Assembly (NCBI GenBank): GCA_025526915.1
Contig: JAHLKH010000067.1
Location: 1-64,000 of the forward strand
DNA: 64,000 nucleotides
Source of the DNA: Entophlyctis helioformis
Taxonomy: Eukaryota; Chytridiomycota; Chytridiomycetes; Chytridiales; Chytriomycetaceae
Reading direction: 5' to 3'
How positions within the stretch are numbered: the stretch's first letter is position 1; each line of letters starts with the position of its first letter. Made by a program: the position numbers and the translations under genes. The notes beneath the pieces are model-generated. The model ran no database searches, was not told the origin of the DNA, and saw only the letters and a program-made list of their open reading frames with translations. This document shows positions 3,982 to 57,497 of the stretch, piece by piece.

Positions 3982-5087
3982 CCTCCTCGCCGCCAACCAC
4001 CCCTTCACCGACGGCTGCTGCATCCTCTGCAACCAGAGCCTGAACGGCACGCACGAATGGGCTCACTTTGTTGTCAGCTGCACAGGCCTCGCCATCCAAC
4101 GCGACGACGCCAATCTCGCTCCATTCATTGCCCAGATCTCGGAAGCCATCGAACACAAACTCCCCGAATCCAACGATCCCGCTTCCCTCGCCGCTCTCGG
4201 CTTCGACGACGATCTTCTGGCTACGTTTAGGACCATCCGAGTATCTACAAGAATCGACCAAGTGTACATAACGCTCCTCGGCGGAGGAGTTCTATCCGGT
4301 GTTGCGGACATCACAGAGTCTTGGCTCTGTGGTGACCAGCAACAAGTCAATGCACCTGGAGACGTGCGTCCACTCGCCTCGCGAATGTGCGCGTTTCTTC
4401 AGGCGGCCCATGGTGTGTTCCAGCGTACTTTATGGATACATCACCATGGACGTGTCGGACCAGGGGGATGACATAACTGAGGGATCTACGCACGGCCTAA
4501 AGCTCGTAAGGGTATGGCATCTAGTGTCTTGGGGACTGGGAATCTTCTTGGAATGAACTTTGGCATCACCAAAAAAAACCTCCTCGCCGCCAACCATCCC
4601 TCTCTCCGGCCATCGTCGGCAGAGGGCATGCAGGAGAACAGCAAGCGGCCAGCAGATGCGATCCACCGACATCCACTTGACATCCACAAATATCCACTTG
4701 ACATCCACCGGCATTCGACGCGATCTTGGCTTGCGCGACAGAAACCAGCCGCAGCAGCAATGCGGCGCAAGGCTCCGATGCAACCAGGACCTGTGCACAG
4801 CGCCTGTGCACCGCAGCTGTGACGGCAGAGCGAGAGAGCGAGAGAGCGAGGGACCCAGCGGCAGTCTGTGCAGCACACACACACCCACACACAGGCAAGT
4901 GAGCGCATGCATACCGCCAGCGTCCTTTGGTTGCAGCCACACTGACACAAACAAACAGCCTCCGCTGCCGCCGCTGCTGCCAAAACGTCTGCCCACGCAA
5001 GCAAGTCTGTGGTGCGGCACTCGCTCCTTGTGCACCCAGCCGCTCTGGAACTTGAGGGGCAGCGACCATGCCCAGCTACCCGGTCGT

Positions 5088-5160
5088 CCAGCCGCTCAGC
5101 CGCTCAGCCACCCAGCCATCCAGCCATCCAGCCATCCAGCCGTCCAGCCGCTCGGCCGTC
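5088..5160 (+). repeat. cagccatc/cagccgct minisatellite
   Basis: About nine tandem 8-base units (cagccgct, cagccatc and variants). The copies of this stretch in duplication blocks 2 and 3 are shorter, so it is a length-variable tract. Confidence 0.7.
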
Positions 5161-6757
5161 CGTCTGCTTGCCTGATTGGGATCGCAAACAACACCTCCGC
5201 CTTGACCGTCTCTTGACAGCACCTGCCTCCAGGGCATGCAGCAACTTGCCTCTGCCGCCCTCTTTCGGCCGGTCAACCTGCCAGCATATCAACCTGTCAG
5301 CCTGTCGCATCCCAGACACCTGCGACCATACCAAACTCACTCCTGGGGGTCACATCCACGGCGAAACGCGCGATTCTGGCCTGTCGATTGTGGGCAGGCT
5401 GGTTGGACGGTCAGTCGGTCCGTTGGCTCGCAGCCGTGCACGTTCCCTTTGGCAGCACAGAGTGCGGCCCCATGCAATCCGCAAGGGCAGCCGATCTCAA
5501 CCCAGACCCGCCCAGGCCCTCGATGGCAGACAGGTGCGCTCCATGGGGCAATCACGACTGCAAACGCCGCCTGGCTATTGGATCTCTTGAGCAGCAAGCA
5601 CCAGCAGAAAGCACGAGCACGAGCGAGCCGCGTCGCGTCACGTCGCGCCTTGGGGTTCAGCGGCTCGCTTCGGTCTGCACCGTCTCTACCGTCTGCACCT
5701 GCGTCAGTGTGGCCGAGCGTGATTAGCGTGCGGATCGACGTCAGTGGCAGGCCGTGGCACACAGCAATTGTGTGAACAGCCAGTGTGTGAACAGCCGCCC
5801 ACACGAGCCAGGCTGTCATCCAGAACCGCTGGCAAGCAGCACATGCTCGAGCCAGTCAGTATCGCACGCAGGACAAGAGCATGGACGCGACGACGATGAC
5901 GACAACGACGACGACGGCAATAAGGACGCTCGCTGGCCAGCCAGCTGTGCAGGCGCATGCGGACGGCCCGTGCACGCACAGCCCGCTCACAGCTTGCGCA
6001 CAACCCGCGCACACACGCAAGCATGCGAGCATGCGACGGACGGACCAGCGGCCCTCTGTGCGTCTCACGGGCCGGTCCGCCAGCAGCCGCCCCGTTGTCT
6101 GCGAAACCGGCACTGGGCCACACGAGCCAAGCCGGCTGGACTCGCTCACCTGGACACCGAGCAAGACCGCGGCCCGCCGCACCCGGGCGAGCTCAAGGCG
6201 AGCAGGGCAGTGGCCTCGAGACCCCGCTGGCTGCTGCCCTGCTTCCCTTGGCCTGCGCACGCCATCGCTGGCTGCTGCACGTCGTTGCCTGCGCCTGAGA
6301 TCCAAGCCAGATCATGAAGCAAGACGGAAGCAAGACGGTAGCACGGCACGACGGAAGCACGGCACGAGCGAAACACGGCACGCAGCCAGCACCAACACGA
6401 GCACCAACACGATGCAACGCGATGCACACGCACATGGCGGAGCATGGACGGCCGGGCACCAGCAGCATCTGCCATGCGCAGCGGCTCAGCGTCGTGTCCC
6501 CTGCAGCCTCGCGTCGGTCGGAGAACACCGCTCGGATGCACGCGCTGGTGCCGCATGGATGGCGCGTCGCGTGCTTTGGTGCGTCATCTGCACGCTCCTG
6601 CACGCACACGCACACGCACCTCTTGCTGCTCCGCTTGTGCTCCGACCGTGTCTGCTACTCAGTGGCGAGCAGGCACAGGCGCCACCAGCACCGGCCTCCG
6701 CCTGTACAAGAAGCAGGCAGCACCCGCTGCTCTTTGCCGCCATTCCCCGCAGTCAGC

Positions 6758-8493
6758 ATGGCGATCGTCCAGCCTCCCCTTGCACCGAGTGCTGCCCGTC
6801 AGCCCAAGGCCGCTTGCAGCGCCAAGTCGTACCTGCGGCCGACGGCTGCGTCAGCTGCAAGGCTGGCCGCACAGCCTGCCCACGCAGCCACCAGGCAGCA
6901 GCCAGCCAGAGCCACCGCGAAAGAGCCCGCAGCCACCAAGCAGCGGCTTGCTGCGAGTGCCAGAATGCCTGCTCCTTCAGCCAAGCCTGTAAGTGCCGGC
7001 ACTTGTATCTGCAGACATGCTGCCATGCGGCACATCTCGTCCTGTTCGTGCTGCTGCCTCGCATGGCTCTGCCCGTGCTGTCTTGCTATTGTTCGCTCTG
7101 TTTGCGTCGCTGCCTGCATCTCTGCCACTATCCCCGTTGCCTGCTCCGCGCAGTCTAACACGTCTGCCTTGCATCCCCGTCGGTCGTGCTCCTGCTCACT
7201 CCGCTCACTCCGCCGGCTGCCTTCTTCAGACCTCTCTTGCTGCCACCACGCGCAAGACGCCAAGCGCGCACTCGAGCACTCCGCTCCGAAGCCGTATCCC
7301 TGTGCCGTCGCCTGCTTCGCCTGCTTCGACTGCTTCGACTGCTTCGACTGCTTTGCTTGTGCCCAAGGTACGCAGCCACTGCTTACAGTCACTGCTGGCA
7401 ATCTCTACGCTCGTCCAGTGCCTTGTGATGCAATGCGTGCGCACCAAGGACGCTTCAACTGACCCGCATCTCATCAATGGCTGCTTCCCTCTGCGACTCG
7501 CTTCTCTCTGAACTGCTCCGCTGCATGGCGCCATCCAGGATATCTGCGACAAGATCACGGCCCATTCTCGTGCACTCAACGCGCTCCTTTCGTCTGCCCG
7601 CAATGGCACTCTCTCCCAGTCGAGCGCGTCAGACGGTCTTTCCATTGCCGAGTCGCTTGTGGGCATCCTCACGGCTGCATGCAAGCCGCCGGCCGTCTGT
7701 CCGAGTCCCACGTCGAGCGTCTCCAGCACTGCCTCTGATGTGCTTGTGGATGCCTCCAAGCATTCCTGTGACATCGACTTGTCAATGATTGATGGGTCGC
7801 CTGGTCTGCTTGGTGACTTTGGCAGCGACTCGGCGACCGTGGCCCCGCAGTCTCCGCCCGTCTCGCCTGACGCATTTGGCAGCCGCTCCAACCGCAAGGT
7901 AAGATGCCGCCATAGTGCGCATGCCATGCAGTCCTTGGATCTGACCCGACGGTCTCTCTCTCTCTCTCTGCTTCTATTGTATCGTCTCGTCCTGCACGCT
8001 TTTGCCAGCCCGTGAAGGTTGCCGAGGCGTTGACGCCGCCCAACTCGTGCCACTCTGCATTCACGTTTTTTGCCAGTCCCGCCTCTCCCGGCTCGGTCGA
8101 TGGCAACACCACCATCGGCGTGCCAGAGGGCAATCCGCTCTACTTCCCGGACACATCCATCGTCAAGCCACCAAGCCTGCGGACGCCACGTACTGTGATG
8201 GCAACACCGACGGCGATGGCGACATTGAAGACGTCTCAACGGCCCTCTCGGATCTCCGTCTTCGCGTTTTGGCCGAGACTCGCAAAGTCCAGCAACTTCT
8301 TCACCGTCATGACCACGCCTCCCTCACACCAACACGCTCCACCAAATCCAGCACACCCCAGCACACCAAGTCCGACACAAACTCGCTCTCGTCGACTTTC
8401 AGCCGTCTCCTCTTGGTTTCCCTCTTGATCTTCTTCTTGTTCCCTCCCACAGACGCATCGGCAAGCAGCTCGGTTGTTTACGCAAGAACGTAA
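6758..8493 (+). pseudogene. duplicated gene, copy 1, frameshifted
   Basis: Exons 6758-6988, 7230-7367, 7539-7898 and from 8009 join in phase 0 with good gt/ag sites. The product starts MAIVQPPLAPS, is rich in Ala, Pro and Ser, and has a more ordered part (DICDKITAHSRALNALLSSA; later DVSTALSDLRLRVLAETRK). Against copy 2 (38263-40004) one C is missing at about 8165-8175 (aagccaccaag for aagcccaccaag), so the last exon is read in the wrong frame. A further intron 8306-8452 is likely: its 3' part is a long pyrimidine tract ending in cag. I do not recognise the family. The helix-like segments suggest a regulatory protein, but that is a guess. Confidence 0.55.
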
Positions 8494-8748
8494 ACACTGA
8501 CCAGCGGCCGCCATTGATGCATACGGCACAGGCAACCAACCCATGAAAATCATCCTCACCAGATGAGTGGGGTTGCCTCTGCAGCCAGGTGTGACACGCT
8601 CGAACGTGTCTCTCTGGCTGTTGAACCTGTCGATCTGCTTTCTCCCATCTTGGAATGAATGGTGCCCATTTCAACGACACGCGCAATGCTGTGGCTTGCC
8701 AGCCGAAAGGATCAGCGGGTGCAAGTCGATGTGTGTTCATTTGCAACA

Positions 8749-8777
8749 GATTCGGGCCCGGTTCTCATACCATTACC
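8749..8777 (+). repeat. left terminal inverted repeat
   Basis: gattcgggcccggttctcat continues through accattacc. Aligned with the reverse complement of 18201-18230 it matches at about 24 of 29 positions with one gap, including an unbroken gggcccg, tcatac and attacc. Confidence 0.7.
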
Positions 8778-8833
8778 CCTGGTGGAATCGCTGTGATTGG
8801 TCAATCCTGGTGGAATCGCTGTGATTGGTCGAT
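8778..8833 (+). repeat. subterminal direct repeat, 2 x 28 bases
   Basis: The unit cctggtggaatcgctgtgat plus tggtcaat occurs twice in a row, differing at one base. It lies immediately inside the left inverted repeat, a usual place for transposase-binding repeats; that role is inferred. Confidence 0.75.
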
Positions 8834-10270
8834 CTAGAGAGCCCTTGCACGGTGCTGACACTGCGCGATGCGAGCACAGCAGCAACGCGCCATGCCAGAT
8901 CCAGACGCTGCTGCACTTGCCGCCCAACTGCACACAAGCAACAACGAGTCCAACGACAACGACGACAGCGACGACGACGCAGGCGACAGCACGGATATGG
9001 GACAGCGCTCGCTTGCTGGCCGAGTCCTTTCGGGGGAGACTGCGAGGCTCACTGCTCAAGGTGGCATGCAGCAGGCCATGCAGCAGGCCATCCAGCAGTG
9101 CAGCGTGGTCGTGGCCGTCTGAGAGGCATGCCCAACAAGGCGGGCGGACAGAAGGCAGGCTGCAGACAGGCGAGCAGGTGCGTTGACTCGCTGTCTGTCC
9201 AGGCATGCTCCATTGCCCATCGACGACGATGACACAGCAGTCTGACGGCCGTATCTGTGTGGTCTTGGCACTGACTGTGTGCATGTCTCATGGGTCCAAA
9301 CAGCAAGGGACGTTGGCAAGACGGCCGTGAACAGGGCGAGCTGGTTGTTGTTCAAGAAGACAGTGAGAGCATTGGCATAGCAGGACCAAGCTGCCTGGTG
9401 CTTTCCGACTGCGACATGGGATGCAGCGGCAGCAGATGAGCAGCCACTGAGACGTGCTCGAAGGGCCGATCCTTGGAGTTGGCTGCAGGACCTGCTTGCT
9501 GGACAGCTGGATTGGCATGCCGACTTGGATGCCAAACTCGACAGTGGCAGCACACTCGATGAGCAGCACACTCGGCGACACTGATCCAGACGAGATTGGT
9601 GAGGAGGACGCGAGTGCTGGCAGGCGTGTCTGGCCACATTGCACTTGGTGCGATGGCATCTTGGATGCGACCCACTGAGCAGCACATGGAGTGGCCAGAC
9701 AGACAGACCAAGCACTCTCGATTCATTCAACAACCACAACGACGATGATGATGGCGATGGTCCTGACGATCCAAGTCTTGCATGCACTGTGCGTGTTGAC
9801 AAGGACAATCCAGAGCAGAGGGGCGATGCAGGCAGTGCGCCAACGGCCAACCCGCCCACGGACCAGCTGGCCAGTCAGGCAATACCAACTGCATCGCACT
9901 GGGTCACAATGAAGATGCATATCAGGACGCTTGTTGGATGCAACGGGGCATTGACTGAGAAGACGACACTCGGAGAGGGGCTCGCTGCAATGCAGCTCAT
10001 GACACGCAGAGTGATGCTGCACGGTGCATGTCAAGCTGCGCACTGAGTGGCATCACATCAATGACTGTGCCAGCAACACACGACCGCATCTTGAACGCCT
10101 GGCTGTTGGCTGTGCTCGCTGCTCCCTCTATGGCTGTTGGGCAGGGGACGGCGAGTGCCTGGATGCTCGCTCTCTATCCACTCGCTCTCTGTCTGTGTCG
10201 GCAATGAAAAGTTCAACTCCGCCAGACGCTCCGATTCTTTTCTCGTAAACGCAGATACAGACACAGAAGC
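8834..10270. other. left arm of the transposon, no gene assigned
   Basis: About 1.4 kb with only short frames. The best is 8868-9122 (+), 84 residues with an acidic Asn/Asp stretch and a Met/Gln-rich end; another Asp-rich frame lies at 9639-10046. Splice-like sites are present, so a multi-exon gene could hide here, but I could not join the pieces into a convincing protein and recognise no domain on either strand. Confidence 0.4.
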
Positions 10271-13200
10271 ATGACGGTCGCCGGCTTGTTGAGGGTGCTC
10301 AAGCTAGGCAGGGCTGTCTGTGTCTACAGTGCTGCCTGGACCCTGTGCCAGGTCTTGCAGGCTATGCTGCAACAGCTGCTGCCACAACAGCCGCAACAAC
10401 AACAGCCGCAACCACCCACTTCAGCGGGATGCTGCACGTTGATGTGCTAAGCGTCTTCTTCTCGCAGCTAGTCGCCACAGCCGCCATCAGCATGCCCGAC
10501 TCCATTGACAGCTGGAAGGACATCGTCCAGCCAGCTTTTCAGCTGTTCATGGCGTCGGTCGGCGACGACCACACCATCAAATTCCATGTGGATGGTCGCC
10601 GCGGAGACGCAGGTATAAAGATCGTGCACCAACACCGCGCACTCAACATGCTGCATGCGGCGGTCAAGGTCCTGCGGTATGCGTTCCGCCGCCAAGAATG
10701 CAAGCAGACGGGATCACTTTCAAAGTAAGTTTGCTACTCTGTACTGTGTGGCTGCCATGCTGACTATCTTCTGCTGCTTGCCATCAGGGACGAGATGTAT
10801 GCCCTCAACAGGTTCTACACGTTGACGCAGAGTGACAAACAGCACATTGCTGCGGCCCTCAGTGAGCTGGCTGGCAAAAAGAAGGGATGCACAGTCTGCT
10901 GGTGTGATTATGAAGCAGACTGTTGCATCGCCCGCCATGTTCGCGAGCCAAGGTAACATTGCCTTGGATCATTCGGCCGTGACTGATGGCTCACGGTCTG
11001 TATTCTGTGACAGTGCCAAGCCGATCATTGTCATTGCCAATGACTCTGATCTGGTGGCACATTGTGCTGGGCACTGCGGTGTTGTTTTGACACACCTGCA
11101 GCATGGGCGGTTTAACCAGCCTCGCTCATACAACCATGGCGGTATCGCCTCAACCGCGTCTGCATTGGGCGTGCGCGACTTTGCTGGAGCATGCCAGCTG
11201 GTCGCTGCACTGTCCAGGACAGATTATTTTGGCCGCAATGACCATGGTGAGTTGCCGCGCCTGTATTGTAGTATCTGCCATCACTCACATGCCATTCTTT
11301 GTCTACATGCGCGATTCTGCTTGCATTCCCTGCCAGGAATCGCCGCCGCGGTCAAGTTTGTCAATGCGCGGTTTGATGCCAAGGTCGAAGAGCTCAACAT
11401 CAAGGCGGCTGACCTCTACACGATCCTCGAGACTCCTAATGAGGCCAAGGCGTTCATGGACGGCGTCAGGGACGCGTACATCGAGGAGCTGGTCAAGAAT
11501 GGTGATGAGAGCCTTGTCCAGGCATTCAAGAACGCGTTTGAAGTCTTTGTCAACCGGAATGATGTTGGGGCCTCTGCTAGTGCAATCACAGCGCCGATCG
11601 TCGCGAGGTATGTTTATTCTTGAAGGATGTCACGGACATGATGGCATTGACGCGTTTGAATGCCTTGCACAGATCTGAGCCTCAAGCCAACCACACCAAC
11701 CACATGGATGTCAACACGACTCCATCTGTTGGAATGAAGTATGAATGCATGGAATCTGTGGCGTTTCTGGCAAAACTGACACTGAGTTTCTGTTTCTGAT
11801 GCTGCGATCTCATTATTGTGCAGGTGCTTGACGGATGGATGCTGCTTGAGCCATACTGCACAGCAGCAGCAGCAGCAGGCTGAGAACGGTGTCCAGCTTG
11901 TCCACTTGACGCGTGGCAGGGTCGAGCAGCTTGTCAGCAGCACTGTTGGCAACAGGCGGTTGGATGCTGCCTTCATTGAGGTGAAGGGTTGCCATGTGGC
12001 ACTCGACACCATCATCAAGTGCACAGTCAACCGCCTTGCGAGCAGCTACGATGCTGTTACGCGTCGCGACATCCTCGCGGCCATCTGCAAGGCAGCAAGT
12101 GCCCAGCTGCTGCAGATTGCCAGCGAGCAGTTTCTTGGAGCAGATGGCATTTTTAAGCTCCTCCCAGCAGATGAGCCAATCTATCGCGCATTGGTATGTT
12201 TGCATGGCTTGAATGCATGCTGTTGCTATCACACCACGTGCATTTGCTGATTTTGAATGCGGCTGACTTGATCCATTGCTTCTGGACAGAACGCAGCAAT
12301 GAGAATGCAGATGCAGCTCGACAAGATTGCCAATCCGCCATGCGCATCCCACCGGCATACATCCACTCCCAGTAGGTGTTGATTGCATTGAAATGATTCA
12401 ACAGCATCCACTCACAGATCCATTTGTGTTGAATGCATAGTACTGGACACAGAGACGCAGAAAGTCGAGTACCACGGCAGGATGACCACGCGAGTTGCAC
12501 CGCGATCCACTGTCGCTGCTATCCACGACAAGGCGTCAGCCTGGCTGTATTTCCTGGAGCACCCCATAGGTCCACATCCAGAAAACGCCAAACCGCCAAC
12601 ACTCATCAATCAGCGCCAAAAGGCTGTCGCCCTGCTGCAGTCCATCATTGAGCAAAGTGCAGTGCGTCTCGACTTCCACTGACTGCATGTGCATGGAATG
12701 ATTTGGCGCGATTGCTCACCATCCCACTCCACAGGTTGGTCCTCCTCCACCGCCGCCCAAGCCACCACGGTTGTCCAACAACATCTTCGCAGCACTGGCA
12801 TGCTCCAAGACCTTTCCCGTTGGCGATCTTGCCGACACTGAGACGACAGTGAGTTTGGTGCACCATTGGCAATTATGGCTGTGTTTGGTGCACTTGGAAT
12901 GGCCGCCTGATGCTGCATCCAACCGTCACAGGCGCCATTCCAATTCATGGCAGCCAAGCGGGCTGCGCACACAAAGGAGCGTGCCAAGAAAAAAGAGAAG
13001 GCCACACTACAGGAGATCATCAGAGAGAACAAGAAGAAGTCAGACCTGCGTGCTCGCAAGGCGGGAACTGTTGGCAAGAAGAAGGCGTACGCGACATATG
13101 GCATGTCATGTGCCTTGAATGTGCTTGCTGACACGTGTGTCATGCCACAGATGGGTTGCTGGCAGTCGAGTGGCAACTCGTCAGAAGCTTGCAAAGCTTG

Positions 13201-14684
13201 GCCGCATGATTGCGATGCCAGTCATGACACTTGCCGCGGCCACCTATCCCAAAGGACAGCCAAGACCTAAAGGCAATGCACACAGCCGCCCTGAGCAGAT
13301 TGTCAAAATGGCGGTATGGGGTTTGATCGGCATGCTGCTCTGTTTGCTTGGCTTTGTGTATGCTGACTTGTGTGGTATGCAGGAAATGCAGTCATGCGAT
13401 CTCGCAAACACCAAGTTTTTTGGGCCCCAAACCAAGACACCACTCGCCGAGCAGACACCCAGTTCAATCAGCCACGACACCACCCTCACAGTCTACTATT
13501 TCACGGCCGGCTTGTGGCGTGCTGCCCTTGCCTTGATCGGCGCCATGGTCGCGGATCTGGTCAAGCTGAATGCAGACGCGCCTCTGCCTCTGGAGTACTG
13601 TGTCCTGGAGGCAAGCCAAGGCAAGCTGACGCAGTATTACTATGTCAACCCCAAGGACTTTGACGAGGACGAGAGTGCGACGCTCTTGTCAGGTGGATGC
13701 GTTCACAAGCAGGGCATCATTGTTTGGCACATGTACGGCACCGGCCCGCACAGCAGCGACACAAAGATCCCTCGCTATGGCAGCTTGGTGACTCTCGAGA
13801 GTGACACGGCTCTCAAGATCTGCGCCTTTGATACTGCCAAGATTGCCAAGCAACCCAACATGCATGGCGACCTCAACAAGCACGACGAGCACGACGAGCA
13901 GGACGAGCACGACGAGCAGGACGAGCAGGACGAGCACGACGAGCACGAGCTGCCTGTGCAGCCTTGCATCCAGGACAAGCATGATGTGCACAATCAGCCG
14001 ACAGCAGCCAGCAGCACCAGCGCTTCATCTTCAGCCGTCCAACCGCCACCACCACCACCAGCAGCAGCAGCCGTTCCATCAGCAAATGAGCTGCTTACGG
14101 CCCTCACCAGCAGTATATCAGGTGGAGGCGGTGCTGTGGACATGCTGCTGCGCCATCTTGGCTATGTCCTGGCGGACAGCATGATGGTGCAGCCGCAAGC
14201 AACAAAGCATGCCATCCACTCCTGGATCGTAACAGTCATGCAAATGATCCATCGCACCTGGACGCGGAGGGTGCTGCAAACCAACACAGCCAAGCTGCAG
14301 GATGACACGGTACGGATGGACATGATGCAGACGTGCACAATACTGATGGACATGTCACTGATTGATGCAATGCAGCAGGCGGCCACAGAGCACAGCGACG
14401 CGTTCCAGAAAGACGCGCGACAAGCAGCCATGATGGACATGGCACAGATGGACACAATGCGAGCAGCCATGATGGATGCCGACATGATGGACGCGACGCA
14501 GCAGACGGTGACAATCCAGGCCGACGCGATCCTGTCAGCCGTGGTGCAGGCAGATGCAGAGCTGTCGGCCTTGATGCACACAAGTGCACAGACGGCAGAC
14601 GCTGTGCACGCGGGCACTATGGAGGCTGTCTTGCCCTACAGGCTTGATGGCAGCCTTTGCGCGGATGCAAGGCATGACATGTAA
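10271..14684 (+). CDS. XPG/FEN1-like nuclease-family protein next to Fanzor
   Basis: Thirteen exons (10271-10351, 10468-10724, 10788-10952, 11014-11246, 11337-11607, 11673-11738, 11824-12193, 12290-12371, 12441-12661, 12735-12848, 12932-13104, 13151-13313, 13383-14684) give exactly 1,165 codons plus stop. The start MTVAGLLRVLKL copies the MGVxGL start of the XPG family. The N-region follows: VYSAAW (17-23) where VDAS is usual, and HVDGRR...K...HR (67 on). The I-region has DYEAD (153-157), IANDSDL (175-181) and RTDY (236-239). Thus all catalytic acids except the first are visible; Tyr19 replaces the first Asp. The C-terminal half has a Lys-rich segment, a run of HDE/QDE repeats and Met/Asp/Gln-rich helices. 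The family cuts flap and branched DNA. A role in excision or repair at Fanzor cuts is inference. Exon 11/12 junction is the weakest. Confidence 0.72.
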
Positions 14685-14689
14685 CAGAT

Positions 14690-14894
14690 GCCGCCGCAGT
14701 CCCGTGGTCATGTGACCTGCTGGCATTGATCTGGACGCGCCTCACCCGGACCTGGCTTGGCCCTGTTGTTGTAGTCGTATCCAAGCCGTAAGCCTGTATA
14801 CTCACTGCCCCTCTGCCACCAGGTCTGTGCATGAGTCTCAATGAAGTCGTATCCAAGCCGTAAGCCTGTATACTCACTGCCCCTCTGCCACCAG
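14690..14894 (+). repeat. intron-like duplicated element 1 (upstream of Fanzor)
   Basis: Two identical 49-base copies (14774-14822 and 14846-14894), each beginning gt and ending ccaccag with a tactcac branch-like motif, flank a 23-base spacer that contains ATGAGTCTCAATGAA. If the second copy is spliced out, this ATG joins in frame to the Fanzor coding exon at 14895. The element resembles 15660-15898 in layout and partly in sequence. Confidence 0.65.
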
Positions 14895-16421
14895 ACAGCC
14901 AGCCGCTCTCGACGAGGACAGTTACATGACATTTACGGCAATCTGGCCAGGGATGTGTGTGGCATGCTCGCGCGGCACTACATCTCTAGCCAGTCTGAGC
15001 TGGCCGTCACTGCGGCCCTCAAGCTGATGCCCAGTGCATCCATTGAGGACGTGAGAGTGTGGATTGCGGCACTTTTCAAGACCGCCAAGGCTGCTGCTGC
15101 CAAGGCTGCCAAGGATGCTACACCACCAGCGATTGAGGACGCCACACCGCTGGCCACTTTGGACGCTGCTCCTCCCACCTCAAGTCTCAAGCGGGGCCGG
15201 TCCACCTCTTCGTCAGCCAACAAGGGCGGCAGGCCCAAGAGGCGACGGGGCAGGAAGGCAGCCACCACCAAGGACGCGGCATCCAGCTCTTCCTCGGCCA
15301 CTGACAACGGCGGTATTGATACAATCCCGCAAGAGCTGCACGAGCTCAAGACGCTGGTGCCTGATGTGTCTCGGTCAGAGATCGTGATCTTTTACGAGCT
15401 GTCCAAGCTTGCTGGCACGACAAACAAGCTGTGCCCGCAAGCAGCCAGCCGCGATCCCTTCATCCTCATCACCGAGACAACGCTCTTTTGGGCGGTGATG
15501 GGGAGTAGTGATGATCGCATCCGTGGCGAGCAAAGTGCTGCTTTGGCATACTTGCGACTGCAGCTCCTTGCTGCACTCAGTAGGTCGCACTGCCTGTTTA
15601 TGCCATGTCTACATGATATGATGCTAACACTCCACTTTTATCCAAGACTACCAAAAAGCCAGTGTAACGGATGCTCGGTCGCGGTCACGTGATCCACGTG
15701 ATCCACGTGACCCACGTGACCGGACAGACATTGTCGGGCCGCACCGGCCGCTCTGGTTTCCCCCGTTCTTGCAGTCGTCTGCCCGCCGTTCCCCTGCGTG
15801 CATACTCACTGCCCCGAGACCAGGTCTGTGCTGCCTCCCAATGAAGTAGTCGTCTGCCCGCCGTTCCCCTGCGTGCATACTCACTGCCCCGAGACCAGCC
15901 GGCAAGTCCGCCTGGAGGCCCAGTACTACAGCCAGCTTGGGCCTCGCATCATCCAACAGGATGATCAAGAAGGCGTTCAGCAATGGCAAGGAGCTCTGTA
16001 TCCTCAACATACTTCTTCCCGGCCTCCGGCCCAAGAAAGGCCGCTATCAGACGCCAGACGAGGCCGACAAGGAGGTGTTTGAGCAGGTCCAAGCAAATGA
16101 CGCAGTCATTGCTGATGCGATGCAACTGGCTGAGCACGAGGGTCTGGTTGGCAAGGAGCGCCAGGAGTTTATAGACGCCGTGATCGATGGTCTTCCTCCT
16201 GCAATTCCAAGCAAACCGACTGCGGTGGGCAGCTTCCGGACGGACGGATACAGCATCTTTCAATTGGCGCTGGACTATCGCACAGACCGTCCAGAGTCGC
16301 CTCGCAGTATGTGGCGTGCTTGAATGCTTTGGTGCACACATTGGTTCTGACTGCTGCCTTGATCTGCATGCTCCAACATGGCATCTTTAGGCGAGCAGCC
16401 CAGCCTTGCTGATGGCATGCC

Positions 16422-16462
<41 letters not shown>

Positions 16463-18026
16463 GCTTGGATGATGGCTTGGATGATGGCCTTGATGGCACA
16501 TGTGAGTTGCTGTGCCAATCCAGACGCGCACTTGTTGTCCACACCGACTGACATGCCATCCACAGCTGCCGATCCTGCCGACCCATCAGCCACCAAGCCA
16601 AAAGCACCTAATCCTGTAAGTCACTAGCATGCCAACCTCGCGCATTGGTGCACATGCATTGCACATTCCTCACTCATGTCATGGCATGACAGGGCAAGCT
16701 CAGCTTCTACGCCTCGCAGCGATTGCTCAACATTGTCAAAGCCAACAAGTTGTTCACCAACAAGGGCTACTGGTTTGTGCGGATTGTTGGCATTGATTGG
16801 GGCGAGCGGTACATGTATGGCGCGTCCAGCATGCTGGTGGATCTGGCAACCTTCACCTATACCCTCGAGTCCAACTACGTGCTCTCCTCTGGCATGGCAC
16901 AAGCCGAGCACAGCCTTCAGCAGTGGTATGCATGCAATGACTCTGCCACGCGCACTCTTGACCAGATCAACTCACAGCAACTGTCTCTTGCGCCAGGCTC
17001 AACAATCGATATGCCAAGGCAACCGACATCCAGGCAGCCATTGCATTCAAGGCAGCAAAGCATGCCAATCCAAACGTCAAGCCTGGCGAGAGAGCCTTTT
17101 GGGATCTGCGCTGCCGTGCGTACTGCACGCCATTCCTGAATGCACGGGTACGTTTCTTTGTTTCTGGATGCCCATTGACATGACCGCCATGCTGCTTGAT
17201 CGCCTGCTGATTGCACTGGATGGCATGGCATGACATGGCATTCCACAGAAGGTCAAAGCCAAGCGGTTTGCCAAGCGCAGCAACAGCACGTCAATTCGCG
17301 GACAGGCTCTTGAGGGCATCATGAAGCTGGCAGGATCGACCACTGGCAAGCGCGCATCAGCTGCATCTCAAGGCCTCCCTGTCAGCAACCCAGAGAAGGA
17401 CATTCCCGTTGTGTGGGCATTTGGCATCGACTTTACAGGCCAAGGTGGCAGGCACGCTGTGTTTGAGAGGTTTCTCATCAGGCATCTACGGTCGTCTGGA
17501 TATGCCTATGTGCGTCTGAAGCCATCCATCCATCCATCCATCCATCCATCTGTGCACCAACTGACCACACGATCATGAACACACACACGCACAGATCTAC
17601 CGCTGCAATGAGAACCTGACCAGCCAGATGTGCCCGCAGTGCAAGCAGCGGATCCCATACGAGAACCGCACCAACCTGCGACGCTACGAGTGCACAGACT
17701 GCGAGACCGTCTACCACCGAGACGTGCTTGGAGCCACCAACATCGGGATGGTTGCACTGTGGCATCTGCTCTTTGGACACCGGCCGCTCTACTTGACGCA
17801 CACGCCACCTGACAGCAATCCAGCCACGCCAGAGTACCTTGCAGACATCAAGGCAACTCATTATGACATCCAGTGGCGTGCACAACATCACATCATGCTG
17901 CTCGTGACACCGCCTGATCAGCCTGTCGTCCAGCAGCCTCCGTCACCCGATCTGCTTCCCTTCAAGTCGCACGTGGCCTCATGGGATCAGATCATGCTGC
18001 CATGTCTGCCAACAACAACACTTTGA
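14831..18026 (+). CDS. Fanzor (eukaryotic TnpB homologue, predicted RNA-guided DNA nuclease)
   Basis: Exons 14831-14845, 14895-15579, 15899-16306, 16391-16501, 16566-16615, 16693-16925, 16997-17147, 17249-17509 and 17595-18026 give 781 residues. RuvC-I is IVGIDWGERY (Asp458). The RuvC-II strand region is VVWAFGIDF (605-613). NENLTSQMCPQC follows, whose Glu644 sits where Fanzors carry their relocated RuvC-II glutamate. The zinc ribbon is Cys651, 654, 671, 674, and RuvC-III is YHRDVLGATNI (Asp681). The order and spacing are diagnostic of Fanzor/TnpB. The N-terminus has Ala/Lys-rich, KRGR and RPKRRRGRK basic segments likely for nuclear import, and later a 13-Asp tract. The start at 14831 is chosen because it joins in frame across a 49-base intron. 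The 15899 exon has a second plausible frame (see findings). Family function is established; activity here is untested. Confidence 0.88.
15660..15898 (+). repeat. intron-like duplicated element 2 (inside Fanzor intron)
   Basis: Two identical 50-base copies (15774-15823, 15849-15898) begin gt and end gagaccag with a catactcac motif, around a 25-base spacer. Upstream are four CACGTG words. It lies at the 3' end of a 319-base intron, far longer than the neighbouring introns, and shares the pattern gtcgt...gccgt...tactcactgcccc...accaggtctgtgc...caatgaag with element 1. Confidence 0.65.
15683..15722 (+). repeat. tandem CACGTG repeat
   Basis: Four CACGTG palindromes at 9-base spacing (cacgtgatc x2, cacgtgacc x2). 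Each is a perfect E-box-type site. They lie in an intron or, in another reading, encode RDPRDPRDPRD. Confidence 0.7.
16430..16465 (+). repeat. (GAT)n trinucleotide tract in the Fanzor exon
   Basis: About twelve to thirteen GAT codons in a row, encoding a poly-Asp run followed by three GLDD repeats. It is likely length-variable. Confidence 0.8.
17518..17552 (+). repeat. (ccat)n tract in the last Fanzor intron
   Basis: About eight ccat units inside the intron 17510-17594. It has no effect on the coding frame. Confidence 0.7.
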
Positions 18027-18230
18027 ATCGGGGAACCTCCCGATCGACCTAACGGGTCACTTCAATAGAAGGTGAGACCCTTGTTGGATGTGCCACGCCC
18101 GCCTGTCGTCGCATGCTCGTTGCTGACTCGAACCTTCAATCACATGATATGTGGGCTTGCATCCGTCGCCTCTTGGGTCGAATTTAACTCCAAAATCCTT
18201 GGTAATTGTATGAATATCGGGCCCAGAATC
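18027..18230 (+). ncRNA. candidate Fanzor omega-RNA / conserved right end
   Basis: The 204 bases between the Fanzor stop and the end of the right inverted repeat contain no frame of note. Directly after the stop a perfect 6-bp hairpin forms (atcggg-gaacct-cccgat), followed by gacc-taac-ggtc. A related motif recurs at 32917-32953. In TnpB/Fanzor systems the guide RNA scaffold comes from the 3' end of the gene up to the element end, and the guide from the flanking DNA, so the guide here would begin at about 18231. Hairpins and position are seen; the RNA is inferred. Confidence 0.35.
18201..18230 (-). repeat. right terminal inverted repeat
   Basis: Reading the minus strand gives gattctgggcccgatattca followed by tacaattacc, the partner of 8749-8777. 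Confidence 0.7.
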
Positions 18231-18261
18231 GGATCAATCGTCACCCATAAATTCCGGCTAA

Positions 18262-37964: not shown

Positions 37965-38011
37965 CGGGCCTGAGGACAGCAAACACGGAGGTCCTGCACT
38001 CGCTCCGATTC

Positions 38012-41000
38012 TGTTGCAAATGAACACACATCGACTTGCACCCGCTGATCCTTTCGGCTGGCAAGCCACAGCATTGCGCATGTCGTTGAAATGGGCACCA
38101 TTCATTCCAAGATGGGAGAAAGAGATAAGGTTCAACAGCCAGAGAGACACGTTCGAGCGTGTCACACCTGGCTGCAGAGGCAACCCCACTCATCTGGTGA
38201 GGATGATTTTCATGGGTTGGTTGCCTGTGCCGTATGCATCAATGGCGGCCGCTGGTCAGTGTTTACGTTCTTGCGTAAACAACCGAGCTGCTTGCCGATG
38301 CGTCTGTGGGAGGGAACAAGAAGAAGATCAAGAGGGAAACCAAGAGGAGACGGCTGAAAGTCGACGAGAGCGAGTTTGTGTCGGACTTGGTGTGCTGGGG
38401 TGTGCTGGCTTTGGTGGAGCGTGTTGGTGTGAGGGAGGCGTGGTCATGACGGTGAAGAAGTTGCTGGACTTTGCGAGTCTCGGCCAAAACGCGAAGACGG
38501 AGATCCGAGAGGGCCGTTGAGACGTCTTCAATGTCGCCATCGCCGTCGGTGTTGCCTTCACAGGAGGTGGCGTCCGCAGGCTTGGTGGGCTTGACGATGG
38601 ATGTGTCCGGGAAGTAGAGCGGATTGCCCTCTGGCACGCCGATGGTGGTGTTGCCATCGACCGAGCCGGGAGAGGCGGGACTGGCAAAAAACGTGAATGC
38701 AGAGTGGCACGAGTTGGGCGGCGTCAACGGCTCGGCAACCTTCACGGGCTGGCAAAAGCGTGCAAGACGAGACGATACAATAGAAGCAGAGAGAGAGAGA
38801 GAGAGAGACCGTCGGGTCAGATCCAAGGACTGCATGGCATGCGCACTATGGCGGCGTCTTACCTTGCGGTTGGAGCGGCTGCCAAATGCGTCAGGCGAGA
38901 CGGACGGAGACTGCGGGGCCACGGTCGCCGAGTCGCTGCCAAAGTCACCAAGCAGACCAGGCGACCCGTCAATCATTGACAAGTCGATGTCACAGGAATG
39001 CTTGGAGGCATCCACAAGCACATCAGAGGCAGTGCTGGAGACGCTCGACGTGGGACTCGGACAGACGGCCGGCGGCTTGCATGCAGCCGTGAGGATGCCC
39101 ACAAGCGACTCGGCAATGGAAAGACCGTCTGACGCGCTCGACTGGGAGAGAGTGCCATTGCGGGCAGACGAAAGGAGCGCGTTGAGTGCACGAGAATGGG
39201 CCGTGATCTTGTCGCAGATATCCTGGATGGCGCCATGCAGCGGAGCAGTGCAGAGAGAAGCGAGTCGCAGAGGGAAGCAGCCATTGATGAGATGCGGGTC
39301 AGTTGATGCGTCCTTGGTGCGCACGCATTGCATCACAAGGCACTGGACGAGCGTAGAGATTGCCAGCAGTGACTGTAAGCAGTGGCTGCGTACCTTGGGC
39401 ACAAGCAAAGCAGTCGAAGCAGTCGAAGCAGTCGAAGCAGGCGAAGCAGGCGACAGCACAGGGATACGGCTTCGGAGCGGAGTGCTCGAGTGCGCGCTTG
39501 GCGTCTTGCGCGTGGTGGCAGCAAGAGAGGTCTGAAGAAGGCAGCCGGCGGAGTGAGCGGAGTGAGCAGGAGCACGACCGAGGGGGATGCAAGGCAGACG
39601 TGTTAGACTGCGCGGAGCAGGCAACGGGGATAGTGGCAGAGATGCAGGCAGCGACGCAAACAGAGCGAACAATAGCAAGACAGCACGGGCAGAGCCATGC
39701 GAGGCCGCAGCACGAACAGGACGAGATGTGCCGCATGGCAGCATGTCTGGCAGATACAAGTGCCGGCACTTACAGGCTTGGCTGAAGGAGCAGGCATTCT
39801 GGCACTCGCAGCAAGCCGCTGCTTGGTGGCTGCGGGCTCTTTCGCGGTGGCTCTGGCTGGCTGCTGCCTGGTGGCTGCGTGGGCAGGCTGTGCGGCCAGC
39901 CTTGCAGCTGACGCAGCCGTCGGCCGCAGGTACGACTTGGCGCTGCAAGCGGCCTTGGGCTGACGGGCAGCACTCGGTGCAAGGGGAGGCTGGACGATCG
40001 CCATGCTGACTGCGGGGAATGGCGGCAAAGAGCAGCGGGTGCTGCCTGCTTCTTGTGCAGGCGGAGGTCGGTGCTGGTGGCGCCTGTGCCTGCTCGCCAC
40101 TGAGTAGCAGACACGGTCGGGGCACAAGCGGAGCAGCAAGAGGTGCGTGTGCGTGTGCGTGCAGGAGCGTGCAGATGACGCACCAAAGCACGCGACGCGC
40201 CATCCATGCGGCACCAGCGCGTGCATCCGAGCGGTGTTCTCCGACCGACACGAGGCTGCAGGGGACAGTAACGCTGAGCCGCTGCGCATGGCAGACGCTG
40301 CTGGTGCCCGGCCGTCCATGCTCCGCCATGTGCGTGTGCATCGCGTTGCATCGTGTTGGTGCTCGTGTTGGTGCTACCGTCGTGCCGTGCTTCCGTCGTG
40401 CCGTGCTTCCGTTGTGCCGTGCTACCGTCGTGCTTCCGTCTTGCTTCGTGATCCGGCTTGGATCTCAGGCGCAGGCAACGACGTGCAGCAGCCAGCGATG
40501 GCGTGCGCAGGCTAAGGGAAGCAGGGCAGCAGCCAGCGGGGGCTCGAGGCCACTGCCCTGCTCGCCTTGAGCTCGCCCGGGTGCGGCGGGCTGCGGCCGT
40601 GGCAGGGCAGCCATTGTTGGACTGCGGCCTTGCTCGGTGTCCAGGCGAGCGAGTCCAGCCGGCTTGGCTCGTGTGGCCCAGTGCCGGTTTCGCAGACAAC
40701 GGGGCGGCTGCTGGCGGACCGGCCCGTGAGACGCACAGAGGGCCGCTGGTCCGTCCGTCGCATGCTCGCATGCTTGCGTGTGTGCGCGGGTTGTGCGCGA
40801 GCTGTGAGCGGGTTGTGCGTGCACGGGCCGTCCGCATGCGCCTGCACAGCAGGCTGGCCAGCGAGCGTCGCCATTGTCGTCGTCTCGTTGTCGTCTCGTC
40901 GTCGCGTCCATGCTCTTGTCCTGCGTGCGATGCTGACTGGCTCGAGCATGTCCTGCTTGCCAGCGGCTCTGGATGACAGCCTGGCTCGTGTGGGCGGCTG

Positions 41001-42235
41001 TTCACACACTGGCTGTTCACACACTGGCTGTGTGCCACGGCCTGCCACTGACGTCGATCCGCACGCTAACCACGCTCGGACCAACACTGACGCAGGTGCA
41101 GACGGTAGAGACGGTGCAGACCGAAGCGAGCCGCTGAACCCCAAGGCGCAACGTGACGCGACGCGGCTCGCTCGTGCTCGTGCTTTCTGCTGGTGCTTGC
41201 TGCTCAAGAGATCCAATGGCTGGCCGGCGTTTGCAGTCGTGATTGCCCCATGGAGCGCACCTGTCTGCCATCGCGGAGCGGGCCGGCTGGGCAGGGCGGG
41301 CTTGGGTTGAGATCGGCTGCCATTGCGGATTGCATGGGGCCGCACTCGGTGCTGCCAAAGGGGACTGCACGGCTGCGAGCCAACGGACCGACTGGCCGAC
41401 TGCCGACTGACTGACCGTCCGACCAGCCTGCCCGCAGTCGACAGGCCAGAATCGCGCGTTTCGCCGTGGATGTGACCCCAAGAGTGAGTTTGGTATAGTC
41501 GCAGGTGTCTGGGATGCGACAGGCTGACAGGCTGCAGGTTGGGCAGGTTGACAGGCCGAAAGAGGGTTGCAGAGGCAAGTCGCTGCATGCTCTGGAGGCA
41601 GGTGCTGTCAAGGGACGGTCAAGGCGGGAGTGTTGTTTGCGATCCCGATCAGGCAAGCAGACGGACGGCCGAGCGGCTGGATGGCTGGATGGCTGGGCTG
41701 GGCATGGTCGCTGCCCTCAAGTTCCAGAGCGGCTGGGTGCACAAGGAGCGAGTGCCGCACCACAGACTTGCTTGCGTGGGCAGACGTTTTGGCAGCAGCG
41801 GCAGGCAGCGGAGGCTGTTTGTTTGTGTTGGTGTGGCTGCAACCAAAGGACGCTGGCGGTATGCATGCGCTCACTTGCCTGTGTGTGGGTGTGTGTGTGT
41901 GCTGCACAGACGCCGCTGGGTCCTCGCCCTCTCGCTCTCTCGCTCTGCCGGCACAGCTGCGGTGCACAGGCGCTGTGCACAGGTCCTGGTTGCATCGGAG
42001 CCTTGCGCCGCATTGCTGCTGCGGCTGGTTTCTGTCGCGCAAGCCAAGATCGCGTCGAATGCCGGTGGATGTCAAGTGGATATTTGTGGATGTCAAGTGG
42101 ATGCCAGGTGGATCGCATCTGCCTGGCCGCTTGCTGTTCTCCTGCATGCCCTCTGCCGACGATGGCCGAGAGAGGGATGGTTGGAGCGGCAGATGAATGA
42201 ACAAACGAATGGTCGAATGCCAAGCAGCAGCAGGT
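38012..42235 (-). repeat. segmental duplication, copy 2 (inverted)
   Basis: The reverse complement of 4592-8748, with scattered substitutions and small indels. It starts 48 bases after the TPS/TPP stop and holds the intact version of the duplicated gene. On its right side it shares about 50 bases more with copy 3 than with copy 1 (to agcagcagcaggt at 42235). The part 40005-42235 has no recognisable gene. Confidence 0.85.
38263..40004 (-). CDS. duplicated gene, copy 2, frame intact
   Basis: Same model as 6758-8493: four phase-0 exons starting MAIVQPPLAPSAARQPKAAC, then TSLAATTRKTPSAHS, DICDKITAHSRALNALLSSA and PVKVAEPLTPPNSCH. The frame stays open through VKPTKPADATSCEG and DVSTALSDLRLRVLAETRKV, where copy 1 breaks. 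A last intron from CACC/gtcatg to a long pyrimidine tract and cag would give the end HASASSSVVYART. Without it, the pyrimidine tract would be translated as a hydrophobic LLLVSLLIFFLF. An uninterrupted frame runs from 40341 through all introns, because their lengths happen to be multiples of three. Ala/Ser/Pro-rich; no family recognised. Confidence 0.6.
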
Positions 42236-44641: not shown

Positions 44642-44714
44642 TTGTGTTGGTGCTTGTGTTGGTGCTCGTGTTGGTGCTCGTGTTGGTGCTCGTGTTGGTG
44701 CTCGTGTTGGTGCT
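44642..44714 (+). repeat. 12-base minisatellite gtgttggtgctc
   Basis: About six units of gtgttggtgctc/gtgttggtgctt. The same tract has only two to three units in duplication copies 1 and 2, and it forms the left boundary of copy 3. Confidence 0.8.
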
Positions 44715-46547
44715 GGCTGCGTGCCGTGCTACCGTCATGCCGTGCTTCCGTCGTGCCCGTGCTACCGTTGTGCTTCCGTCTTGCTTCATGATCTGGCTTG
44801 GATCTCAGGCGCAGGCAACGACGTGCAGCAGAACGACGTGCAGCAGCCATCGATAGCGTGCCCAGGCCAAGGGAAGCAGGGCAGCAGCCAGCGGGGTCTC
44901 GAGGCCACGGCCCTGCTCGCCTTGAGCTCGCCCCGGGTGCGGCGGGCCGCCGGGTCCTTGCTCGGTGCCCAGGCGAGCGAGTCGAGCCGGCTTGGCTCGT
45001 GTGGCCCAGTGCCGGTTTCGCAGACAACGGGGCGGCTGCTGGCGGACCGGCCCGTGAGACGCACAGAGGGCCGCTGGTCCGTCCGTCGCATGCTCGCATG
45101 CTTGCGTGTGTGCGCGGGTTGTGCGCGAGCTGTGAGCGGGTTGTGCGTGCACGGGCCGTCCCCATGCACCTGCACAGCAGGCTGGCCAGCGAGCGTCGCC
45201 ATTGTCGTGTCGTTGTTTCGTTGTCGTCGTCGCGTCCATGCTCTTGTCCTGCGTGCGATGCTGACTGGCTCGAGCATGTGCTGCTTGCCAGCGGCTCTGG
45301 ATGACAGCCTGGCTCGTGTGGGCGGCTGTTCACACACTGGCTGTTCACACACTGGCTGTGTGCCACGGCCTGCCACTGACGTCGATCCGCACGCTAACCA
45401 CGCTCGGCCCGCCACTGACGCAGGTGCAGCAGGTGCAGCGGTGCAGACGGTGCAGACCGAAGCGAGCCGCTGACCCCAAGGCGCGACGTGACGCGACGCG
45501 GCTCGCTCGTGCTCGTGCTTGCTGCTGGTGCTTGCTGCTCAAGAGATCCAATAGCCAGGCCGGCGTTTGCAGTCGTGATTGCCCCATGGAGCGCACCTGT
45601 CTGCCATCGGGAGCCGGGCGGGTCTGGGTTGAGATCGGCTGCCCATTGCGGATTGCAGGGGCCGCACTCTGTGCTGCCAAAGGGAACGTGCACGGCTGCG
45701 AGCCAACGGACCGACTGGACCGTCCAACCAGCCTGCCCGCAGTCGACAGGCCAGAATCGCGCGTTTCGCCGTGGATGTGACCCCAGGAGTGAGTTTGGTA
45801 TGGCCGCAGGTGTCTGGGATGCGACAGGCTGACAGGCTGGCAGGTTGGAGGCTGACAGGTTGACAGGCCGAAAGAGGGTGCAGAGGCAAGTCGCTGCATG
45901 CTCTGGAGGCATGTGCTGTCAAGGGACGGTCAAGGCGGGAGTGTTGTTTGCGATCCCGATCAGGCAAGCAGACGGACGGCCGAGCGGCTGGATGGCTGGA
46001 TGGCTGGGTGGCATGGTCGCTGCCCATCAAGTTCCAGAGCGGCTGGGTGCACAAGGAGCGAGTGCCGCAGTACAGACTTGCTTGCGTGGGCAGACGTTTT
46101 GGCAGCAGCGGCGGCAGCGGAGGCTGTTTGTTTGTGTTGGTGTGGCTGCAACCAAAGGACGCTGGCGGTATGCATGCGCTCACTTGCCTGTGTGTGGTTG
46201 TGTGCTGCACAGACTGCCGCTGGGTCACTCGCCTTCTCGCTCTCTCGCTCCATCGCTCTGCCGGCACAGCTGCGGTGCACAGGCGCTGTGCACAGGTCCT
46301 GGTTGCATCGGAGCCTTGCGCCGCATTGCTGCTGCGGCTGGTTTCTGTCGCGCAAGCCAAGATCGCATCGAATGCCGGTGGATGTCAAGTGGATATTTGT
46401 GGATGTCAAGTGGATGCCAGGTGGATCGCATCTGCCTGGCCGCTTGCTGTTCTCCTGCATGCCCTCTGCTGACGATGGCCGGAGAGAGGGATGGTTGGAG
46501 CGGCAGATGAATGAACAAACGAACGGTCGAATGCCAAGCAGCAGCAG
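44650..46547 (-). repeat. segmental duplication, copy 3 (partial)
   Basis: Matches the reverse complement of 4592-6405 and, directly, 40350-42235. It lacks the duplicated gene. The right edge (agcagcagcaggt) lies 71 bases before the SKP1 start codon, so this copy forms the SKP1 upstream region. No gene is recognised in it. Confidence 0.85.
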
Positions 46548-57425: not shown

Positions 57426-57497
57426 GCCCCTTTAGCTCAGTGGTAGAGCGTTGGTCTTGTAAACCAAAGGTCATGTGTTCAATCCACATAGGGGGCA
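57426..57497 (+). tRNA. tRNA-Thr (anticodon TGT)
   Basis: A complete cloverleaf: acceptor GCCCCTT/AGGGGGC with discriminator A, D arm GCTC...GAGC, anticodon stem TTGGT/ACCAA around CTTGTAA (anticodon TGT), T arm ATGTG TTCAATC CACAT. No intron. Internal A and B boxes (tagctcagtgg; gttcaatcc) are intact. TTTT runs follow at 57502 and 57510. Confidence 0.95.

Follow-up and report, generated by a model that had tools for sequence, protein, structure and literature searches.

A spliced TnpB/Fanzor-family RuvC nuclease gene in an interrupted inverted-repeat transposon of the chytrid Entophlyctis helioformis

Analysis of a 64,000-nucleotide stretch of the Entophlyctis helioformis genome (contig JAHLKH010000067.1, positions 1 to 64,000 of the forward strand; in the following, the window) led us to a transposon with terminal inverted repeats and a nuclease gene at its 3′ end. 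We conclude with good confidence that the locus is an interrupted copy of a 9.5-kb element and that the gene at its 3′ end, long and spliced, codes for a TnpB/Fanzor-family RuvC nuclease, which would be guided to its DNA targets by a putative omegaRNA. The narrower statement, that a chytrid transposon carries a TnpB/Fanzor-family RuvC nuclease with a relocated glutamate, is well supported by profile matches and motif order. In OMEGA (obligate mobile element-guided activity) systems, a protein binds an RNA from the end of its own element and cuts DNA guided by the flanking sequence (PMC10432273), and by analogy we infer RNA-guided cutting for the E. helioformis protein.

The conserved part of the nuclease gene is a single open frame of 537 amino acids (aa), composed of seven plus-strand exons between 15931 and 18026 that are spliced at GT-AG introns. 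Exon A (15931–16306) is defined by the spliced frame and by substitution comparison, exon B (16391–16501) contains a poly-Asp run whose length varies among copies, and exon C (16566–16615) follows from the spliced frame. Exon D1 (16693–16925) carries the RuvC-I motif GIDWGERY with the catalytic Asp codon at 16795–16797, while exons D2 (16997–17147) and E (17249–17509) are given by the spliced frame and by intron conservation. In exon E, a VVWAFGIDF stretch ahead of the relocated Glu corresponds, as judged by eye, to the canonical RuvC-II position without its Glu. Exon F (17595–18026) matches PF07282 and contains the relocated Glu (17610–17612, in NENLTSQMC), the zinc ribbon (17631–17702) and the RuvC-III Asp (17721–17723, in HRDVLGATNI). 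The original prediction had described these motifs in the order typical of the family and had named Asp458, Glu644 and Asp681 as the catalytic residues; in our gene model the motifs are in frame and in this order, linked by GT-AG introns, and the spacings of 186 residues from D to E and 37 from E to D are identical to those predicted.

Comparison with other copies in the genome is in line with this exon structure. In 30 aligned copies, the window copy included, both GT and AG of introns 4–6 are kept in 30 of 30, and each splice site of introns 1–3 in 28–30 of 30. A frameshift within exon D, which we had considered, was rejected, since the position is occupied by a 71-bp intron with splice sites kept in 30/30 copies. 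A scan of 71 loci, reduced to 52 after merging identical sequences, revealed the relocated-Glu/zinc-ribbon/Asp pattern in 50 of the 52 and the RuvC-I Asp motif in 45, with the motif not found in seven; wherever it was found, it reads DWG (45/45).

The catalytic exon is under purifying selection. Between close and distant copies, the ratio of nonsynonymous to synonymous differences (pN/pS) is 0.33 in the catalytic core of exon F (17595–17798) and 1.08 in the exon F tail; these exon-wise values are based on 19 of the 30 copies, with frameshifted or rearranged ones omitted. An open spliced frame over exons D1–F is present in at least ten of the 30 copies. Together with the motif counts above, the core value and these open frames argue against the alternative that a TnpB-derived transposon protein has decayed or been domesticated and lacks nuclease function. 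It would be favoured by the moderate constraint on exons A, D1, D2 and E (pN/pS 0.52–0.61), the frameshifts in several copies and the interruption of the window copy, and we regard this alternative as improbable. Introns 2–4 (within 16502–16996) differ by only 3–6% between the copy groups, compared to 27% at synonymous sites of exon D1.

Membership in the TnpB/Fanzor family is indicated by profile searches. As the original prediction had anticipated, the protein matches a profile of this family, namely Pfam PF07282 (Cas12f1-like TNB, formerly OrfB zinc ribbon), with 43.5 bits and an E-value of 3.5e-11 (cut-off 26.3); the NCBIfam model guided_TnpB is matched at E 6e-7, under its curated cut-off. 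A family profile built from five copies picked from the 30 aligned was compared with a profile of five plasmid-borne TnpBs drawn from tblastn matches (L102–L106) and aligned at a probability of 97.2% (E 3e-11, 30% identity) over 64 columns, which comprise the zinc ribbon, RuvC-III and the position to which the Glu has been relocated. The motif D-X(125,275)-[TS][TS]-X-X-C4 zinc finger-X(5,50)-RD, given for TnpB and Fanzor proteins by Bao and Jurka (PMC3627910), is also present, with 188 residues from D to TS and five from the last Cys to RD.

More distant searches returned few relatives. In searches of 5.77 billion protein sequences, the matches among the candidates scored were all E. helioformis proteins (at least two, from 8000 scored candidates in a capped search, and seven among 2342), and no close bacterial relative was found in protein searches. 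Using exon E as a query, tblastn against plasmids gave nothing stronger than E 1. Among viral sequences in IMG/VR, 40 stretches fitted a pattern without any relative being confirmed, a degenerate relocated-Glu pattern had no match, and another relocated-Glu pattern fitted two stretches; by its motif, the protein encoded in one of them, L107, is TnpB-like. The published literature covered here, subscription papers lying outside it, contained no paper joining Fanzor with E. helioformis, whose strain JEL805 genome is attributed in PMC11797018 to Amses et al. 2022.

Whether the protein is a Fanzor in the strict sense depends on its fingerprint. According to the sections of Yoon et al. 2023 (PMC10711439) that define it, Fanzors combine DPG at RuvC-I with a relocated Glu, the combination of D-hydrophobic-G with a relocated Glu forms a separate clade, and eukaryotic TnpB relatives are argued to stem from one narrow DPG clade. 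The E. helioformis family has one half of this fingerprint: the relocated Glu lies six residues ahead of the first zinc-ribbon Cys in 50 of 52 loci, and RuvC-I is DWG in place of DPG. Because of this DWG, the family would not be a Fanzor by the criterion of Yoon et al., though it would work like one. Of the Fanzor identity originally proposed, the broader part therefore stands, a TnpB/Fanzor-family RuvC nuclease with a relocated Glu, and the strict assignment does not; the variant is new and not a typical Fanzor.

Two origins of the DWG motif have to be weighed. In the first, which we consider moderately probable, the protein is an ordinary Fanzor1 of DPG/pro-Fanzor descent that differs by divergence only, its RuvC-I proline having been replaced by tryptophan. 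One codon change would be enough; the exact six-residue distance of the relocated Glu and the Bao-Jurka motif fit such a descent, and Fanzor1 genes are described in PMC3627910 from chytrids and from many transposon superfamilies. This origin is harder to reconcile with the uniformity of DWG in all 45 loci that have the motif, and with the distance from D-x-G to the relocated Glu, which at 183 residues in the window copy lies outside the 120–160 of the published search pattern (Yoon et al. 2023, PMC10711439). The family profile, searched up to E 10, matched no Fanzor structure, though a TnpB profile reaches many Fanzor or TnpB structures, among them Guillardia Fanzor1 (E 8e-4).

The second origin, unrelated to that of the known Fanzors, would be an independent eukaryotic capture of a bacterial TnpB with relocated Glu and D-hydrophobic-G, and appears unlikely to us. 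PMC10711439 describes this pairing of DWG and relocated Glu from that clade, and all five plasmid TnpBs, with whose profile the family profile aligns over 64 columns, have a D-hydrophobic-G at RuvC-I. Three of them (L103 from Halopiger, L104 from Psychrobacter and L106 from Acinetobacter) have GIDLG, a Glu six residues ahead of the ribbon (NE..T[ST][QK].C..C) and, as in the E. helioformis protein, the RuvC-III Asp. In contrast, L102 and L105 lack the relocated Glu and show the canonical IEDL instead, so that the matches are not specific to that clade. The alignable region is restricted to that around the zinc ribbon, its 64 columns are too few for a tree, and the failure of protein searches to find a close bacterial relative also speaks against a capture. 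Relocated-Glu TnpBs of bacteria and archaea further differ from the chytrid gene in being single open reading frames (ORFs) of 353–418 aa. A fungal family with relocated Glu and D-hydrophobic-G would either depart from the DPG rule by substitution or show a second capture.

The nuclease gene lies at the 3′ end of a transposon of 9469 bp with terminal inverted repeats, located at 8755–18223, the limits of the DNA that the copies share with the window. The left terminal inverted repeat GGCCCGGTTCTCATACCATTACC (8755–8777, plus strand) begins near the point where many other copies also start, and the right one, GGCCCGATATTCATACAATTACC when reversed (18201–18223, minus strand), was defined by comparison of the ends. 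They are flanked by an 8-bp target-site duplication with one mismatch, CAGATTCG on the left (8747–8754) and CAGAATCG on the right (18224–18231). An element-free paralogue of the left flank at 38005–42184 (minus strand) reads CAGAATCG at its 38005 end, and an initially considered 3-bp duplication is superseded by the 8-bp one. Flanking words of 7–10 bp are shared in four of six further copies in which both flanks were read (8 bp in C12 and C395, 7 bp in C63, or 8 bp if one left-end G is counted as flank, 10 bp in C172, none in C122 and C198). No transposase was recognised in the element.

The element family is abundant. PF07282 gave 150 scored matches among 205 candidates in the genome and exon F gave 151 matches from 302 candidates, of which 150 were scored; the domain is present in at least 150 copies, some of them broken. 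A 29-base pattern from the 3′ segment had 117 exact genome matches, compared to none for the reversed control. The right end was read in 62 loci, which are not 62 places, as loci L001–L068 partly duplicate the same genomic positions. Because about 47 further bases past GGGCC are shared before the flanks diverge in ten of these 62 loci (two with internal changes), at least two kinds of right end carry the nuclease gene and the 3′ segment. The ten loci with the second right end are L001, L004, L005, L006, L008, L027, L030, L031, L032 and L038. With at least 150 copies, some open frames and differing flanks as would-be guides, the family would offer a natural system for studying the role of such nucleases in transposons.

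Between the stop codon and the right end of the transposon lies a conserved non-coding segment (18027–18223, plus strand), the putative omegaRNA scaffold. It has a mean column identity of 84% among 43 distinct sequences, and between close and distant copies its identity is 0.867, compared to 0.633 for the adjoining upstream coding tail (dN/dS in this comparison was taken from 20 of the 30 copies, again with frameshifted or rearranged ones omitted). Helices 1, 2 and 4 are nearly invariant, and pairing in helix 5 is disrupted in many cells (76% paired). Compensated pairs were seen once in helix 1 (5 of 43 sequences) and once in helix 3 (5 of the 12 sequences with helix 3 at that place). The segment has no Rfam match at gathering thresholds. 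Its location fits the position of omegaRNAs in Fanzor loci as described in PMC10432273, and by this analogy it may be transcribed as a guide RNA.

In the mechanism that we propose, a guide RNA would arise from the 3′ segment, with its 3′ end reading into the flanking DNA, and the nuclease would bind this RNA from the 3′ end of its own element. Once the transposon has left by its inverted repeats, the nuclease and its RNA could cut the matching empty site, either the one left behind or that on the sister or homologous chromosome, and repair from the sister or homologue would copy the element back in, such that copy number is kept up.

A number of observations weigh against a guided TnpB/Fanzor-family nuclease at this locus. 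The score for covariation over the whole structure of the 3′ segment is within that of shuffled controls (reached by 81 of 500), the segment of the window folds no better than shuffles (z −0.35), and inspection by eye of the left flanks read showed no evident target-adjacent motif. Several copies contain frameshifts. Among solved structures, the family profile matched no Fanzor or TnpB entry up to E 10; LaTranC came closest, at E 0.27 only. An AlphaFold2 (AF2) model was uninformative as to whether the three catalytic residues meet in one active site: it reached a mean predicted local distance difference test (pLDDT) score of 39.8, with about 61–81 in the first three strands; its query, L086, was an unspliced frame read through the introns, in which exon D2 is out of frame, and the query alignment consisted of few, similar rows.

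The gene extends further upstream than its seven conserved exons and is interrupted in the window by two long terminal repeat (LTR)-like inserts. Its N-terminal coding part, at 13119–14679 on the plus strand, was recognised from the open frame and the substitution pattern: between 13932 and 14680, pN/pS, calculated from the window copy and 16 further copies, is 0.42 in the gene frame compared to 1.16 and 1.23 in the alternative frames, and 39 of 50 indel events are multiples of three. The same frame continues in a coding exon at 14927–15579, again with a coding substitution pattern (pN/pS 0.26 at 14937–15579, and 1.19 and 3.15 in the other frames). The next exon begins at 15646, after an acceptor AG at 15644–15645, and is cut at 15662 by insert 2; in copies without this insert it resumes at 15931.

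Insert 1 (14680–14926, 247 bp, TGTAAC...GTTACA) is flanked by a 5-bp duplication, TGACA, and insert 2 (15663–15930, 268 bp, TGTAAC...CTACA) by GCCAG. At their respective sites, insert 1 is missing from all 17 close copies that span it and insert 2 from 19 of 19. With TG...CA ends and a 5-bp duplication each, both resemble solo LTRs. Among seven other copies of insert 2 that were read, the 5-bp duplication is present at two and absent at five. Insert 2 has 154 candidates in the genome, of which the 40 that were scored are all full-length and 94–100% identical, and judging by these identities it is a member of a young family. As each insert starts with (T)GTAAC and ends near CCAG, we also considered introners, and dropped this reading on account of the TG...CA ends and 5-bp duplications. 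Internally, each insert has a direct repeat about 50 bp long.

The inserts bear on the start and on the integrity of the gene. A start near 14831–14841, where the gene had originally been thought to begin at 14831, falls within insert 1, which the close copies lack, and that boundary cannot be upheld; because the stretches upstream of the inserts code in the same frame, the true start lies well before it. Insert 1 brings an immediate stop codon into the frame. As the two LTR-like inserts break the coding sequence, the window copy is probably not functional: the view that the catalytic residues are intact is borne out for the codons themselves and fails for this copy of the gene. Elsewhere in the genome there are copies without a frame-shifting indel in the exons examined, e.g., L013. 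Since the gene frame continues upstream of the seven exons, the full protein is predicted to be much longer than the 600–700 aa given for most Fanzor1s in the relevant part of Xu et al. (PMC11423790).

One of the closest known counterparts is SPu-1/SpuFz1, a Fanzor1 element of the chytrid Spizellomyces punctatus. As described in the sections of PMC3627910 and PMC10432273 devoted to it, SPu-1 shares with the E. helioformis element a chytrid host, the Fanzor/TnpB motif, inverted repeats, a conserved non-coding stretch that separates the stop codon from the right end, and the lack of a recognised transposase between the repeats. SPu-1 is about 2.1 kb long and has one 633-aa ORF, 33-bp inverted repeats and putative TA duplications (PMC3627910), whereas the E. 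helioformis element is 9.5 kb long with many exons, a far longer N-terminal region, a second gene, an 8-bp duplication, GGCCCG ends and DWG at RuvC-I. A comparable number of about 150 Fanzor element copies in one eukaryotic genome is reported for CMe-1A of Cyanidioschyzon merolae; in contrast to the chytrid element, CMe-1A is about 3 kb long, has no inverted repeats according to its description in PMC3627910, and resides in a red alga. The IS4-type Fanzor1 elements of Ectocarpus and its virus, as far as PMC3627910 details them, also have inverted repeats and, in ESvi-1B, an 8-bp duplication. They differ in that their inverted repeats are 18 bp long and that they encode an IS4-type transposase, which was not recognised in the E. 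helioformis element, and are single-copy and virus-borne.

Sequence variation among the copies (16693–18221 in L009–L038) suggests a mosaic structure made up of very short shared blocks. Linkage, analysed in 17 close and ten distant copies with L010, L018 and L026 omitted (an earlier analysis omitted L010), falls to about the shuffled level within 26–60 bp in exons D2 and E and in the exon F core, in both copy groups. In exon E of the close group, the r2 measure of linkage decreases from 0.68 at distances of 1–3 bp to 0.24 (4–10 bp), 0.12 (11–25 bp) and 0.06 (26–60 bp), the latter equal to the shuffled value of 0.06. In the distant group, exon A retains r2 values of 0.37–0.54 over distances of up to 150 bp, and linkage is not kept in the close group, where only 13 sites are available.

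A second contig, C297 (L010), contains the same element insertion as the window (C67), yet without either insert. The right flanks of the two are 99.2% identical over 1586 columns, with two mismatches and eight gap openings, and 99% identical over 4771 bases. Between 15931 and 18026, however, 113 of 2083 aligned bases differ (about 5%); 82 of these differences have both states in at least two other copies and 31 are private to one, and in the 3′ segment there are no differences in 195 positions. The mosaics could have arisen by ectopic conversion with very short tracts, or they could be an artefact of consensus building over repeats in the assembly. That the family is a eukaryotic TnpB lineage separate from all Fanzors, with relocated Glu and D-hydrophobic-G, captured independently in chytrids, present in at least 150 copies in one genome and diversifying by very short block exchange, seems doubtful to us and is put forward very tentatively.

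Upstream of the nuclease gene, the element carries a second gene (10208–12750, plus strand), recognised by substitutions at third codon positions relative to one diverged copy; downstream of about 11620, its exon boundaries are uncertain. An annotated relative, P0008, is 520 aa long, and all five matches at E ≤ 0.1 are from E. helioformis. Below the Pfam thresholds, XPG_I_2 is seen in five of five relatives (best E 0.0047) and 5_3_exonuc_N in three of five; we take these to be PIN-like families of one superfamily. XPG_I_2 reaches 14–16 bits in the spliced piece and in P0008, compared to a cut-off of 24.2. An AF2 model of the annotated relative (mean pLDDT 41.3) had no Foldseek match at E ≤ 0.001. 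A PIN/XPG-like nuclease can be suggested as a lead only.

The left-end module of the element (8856–10150) is 86–97%, mostly 93–97%, identical to L087, which further in is mostly 60–90% identical. It is also matched by loci without a listed match further in, and its open frames gave no Pfam match above chance. Outside the element, most of the left flank (4590–8754) is repeated in the window at 38005–42184 and part of it at 44690–46498, on the minus strand. A 601-base stretch at 4001–4601 recurs at 689, 2046 and 3404, and Rfam places a U6 snRNA at 475–578 and a tRNA at 57426–57497.

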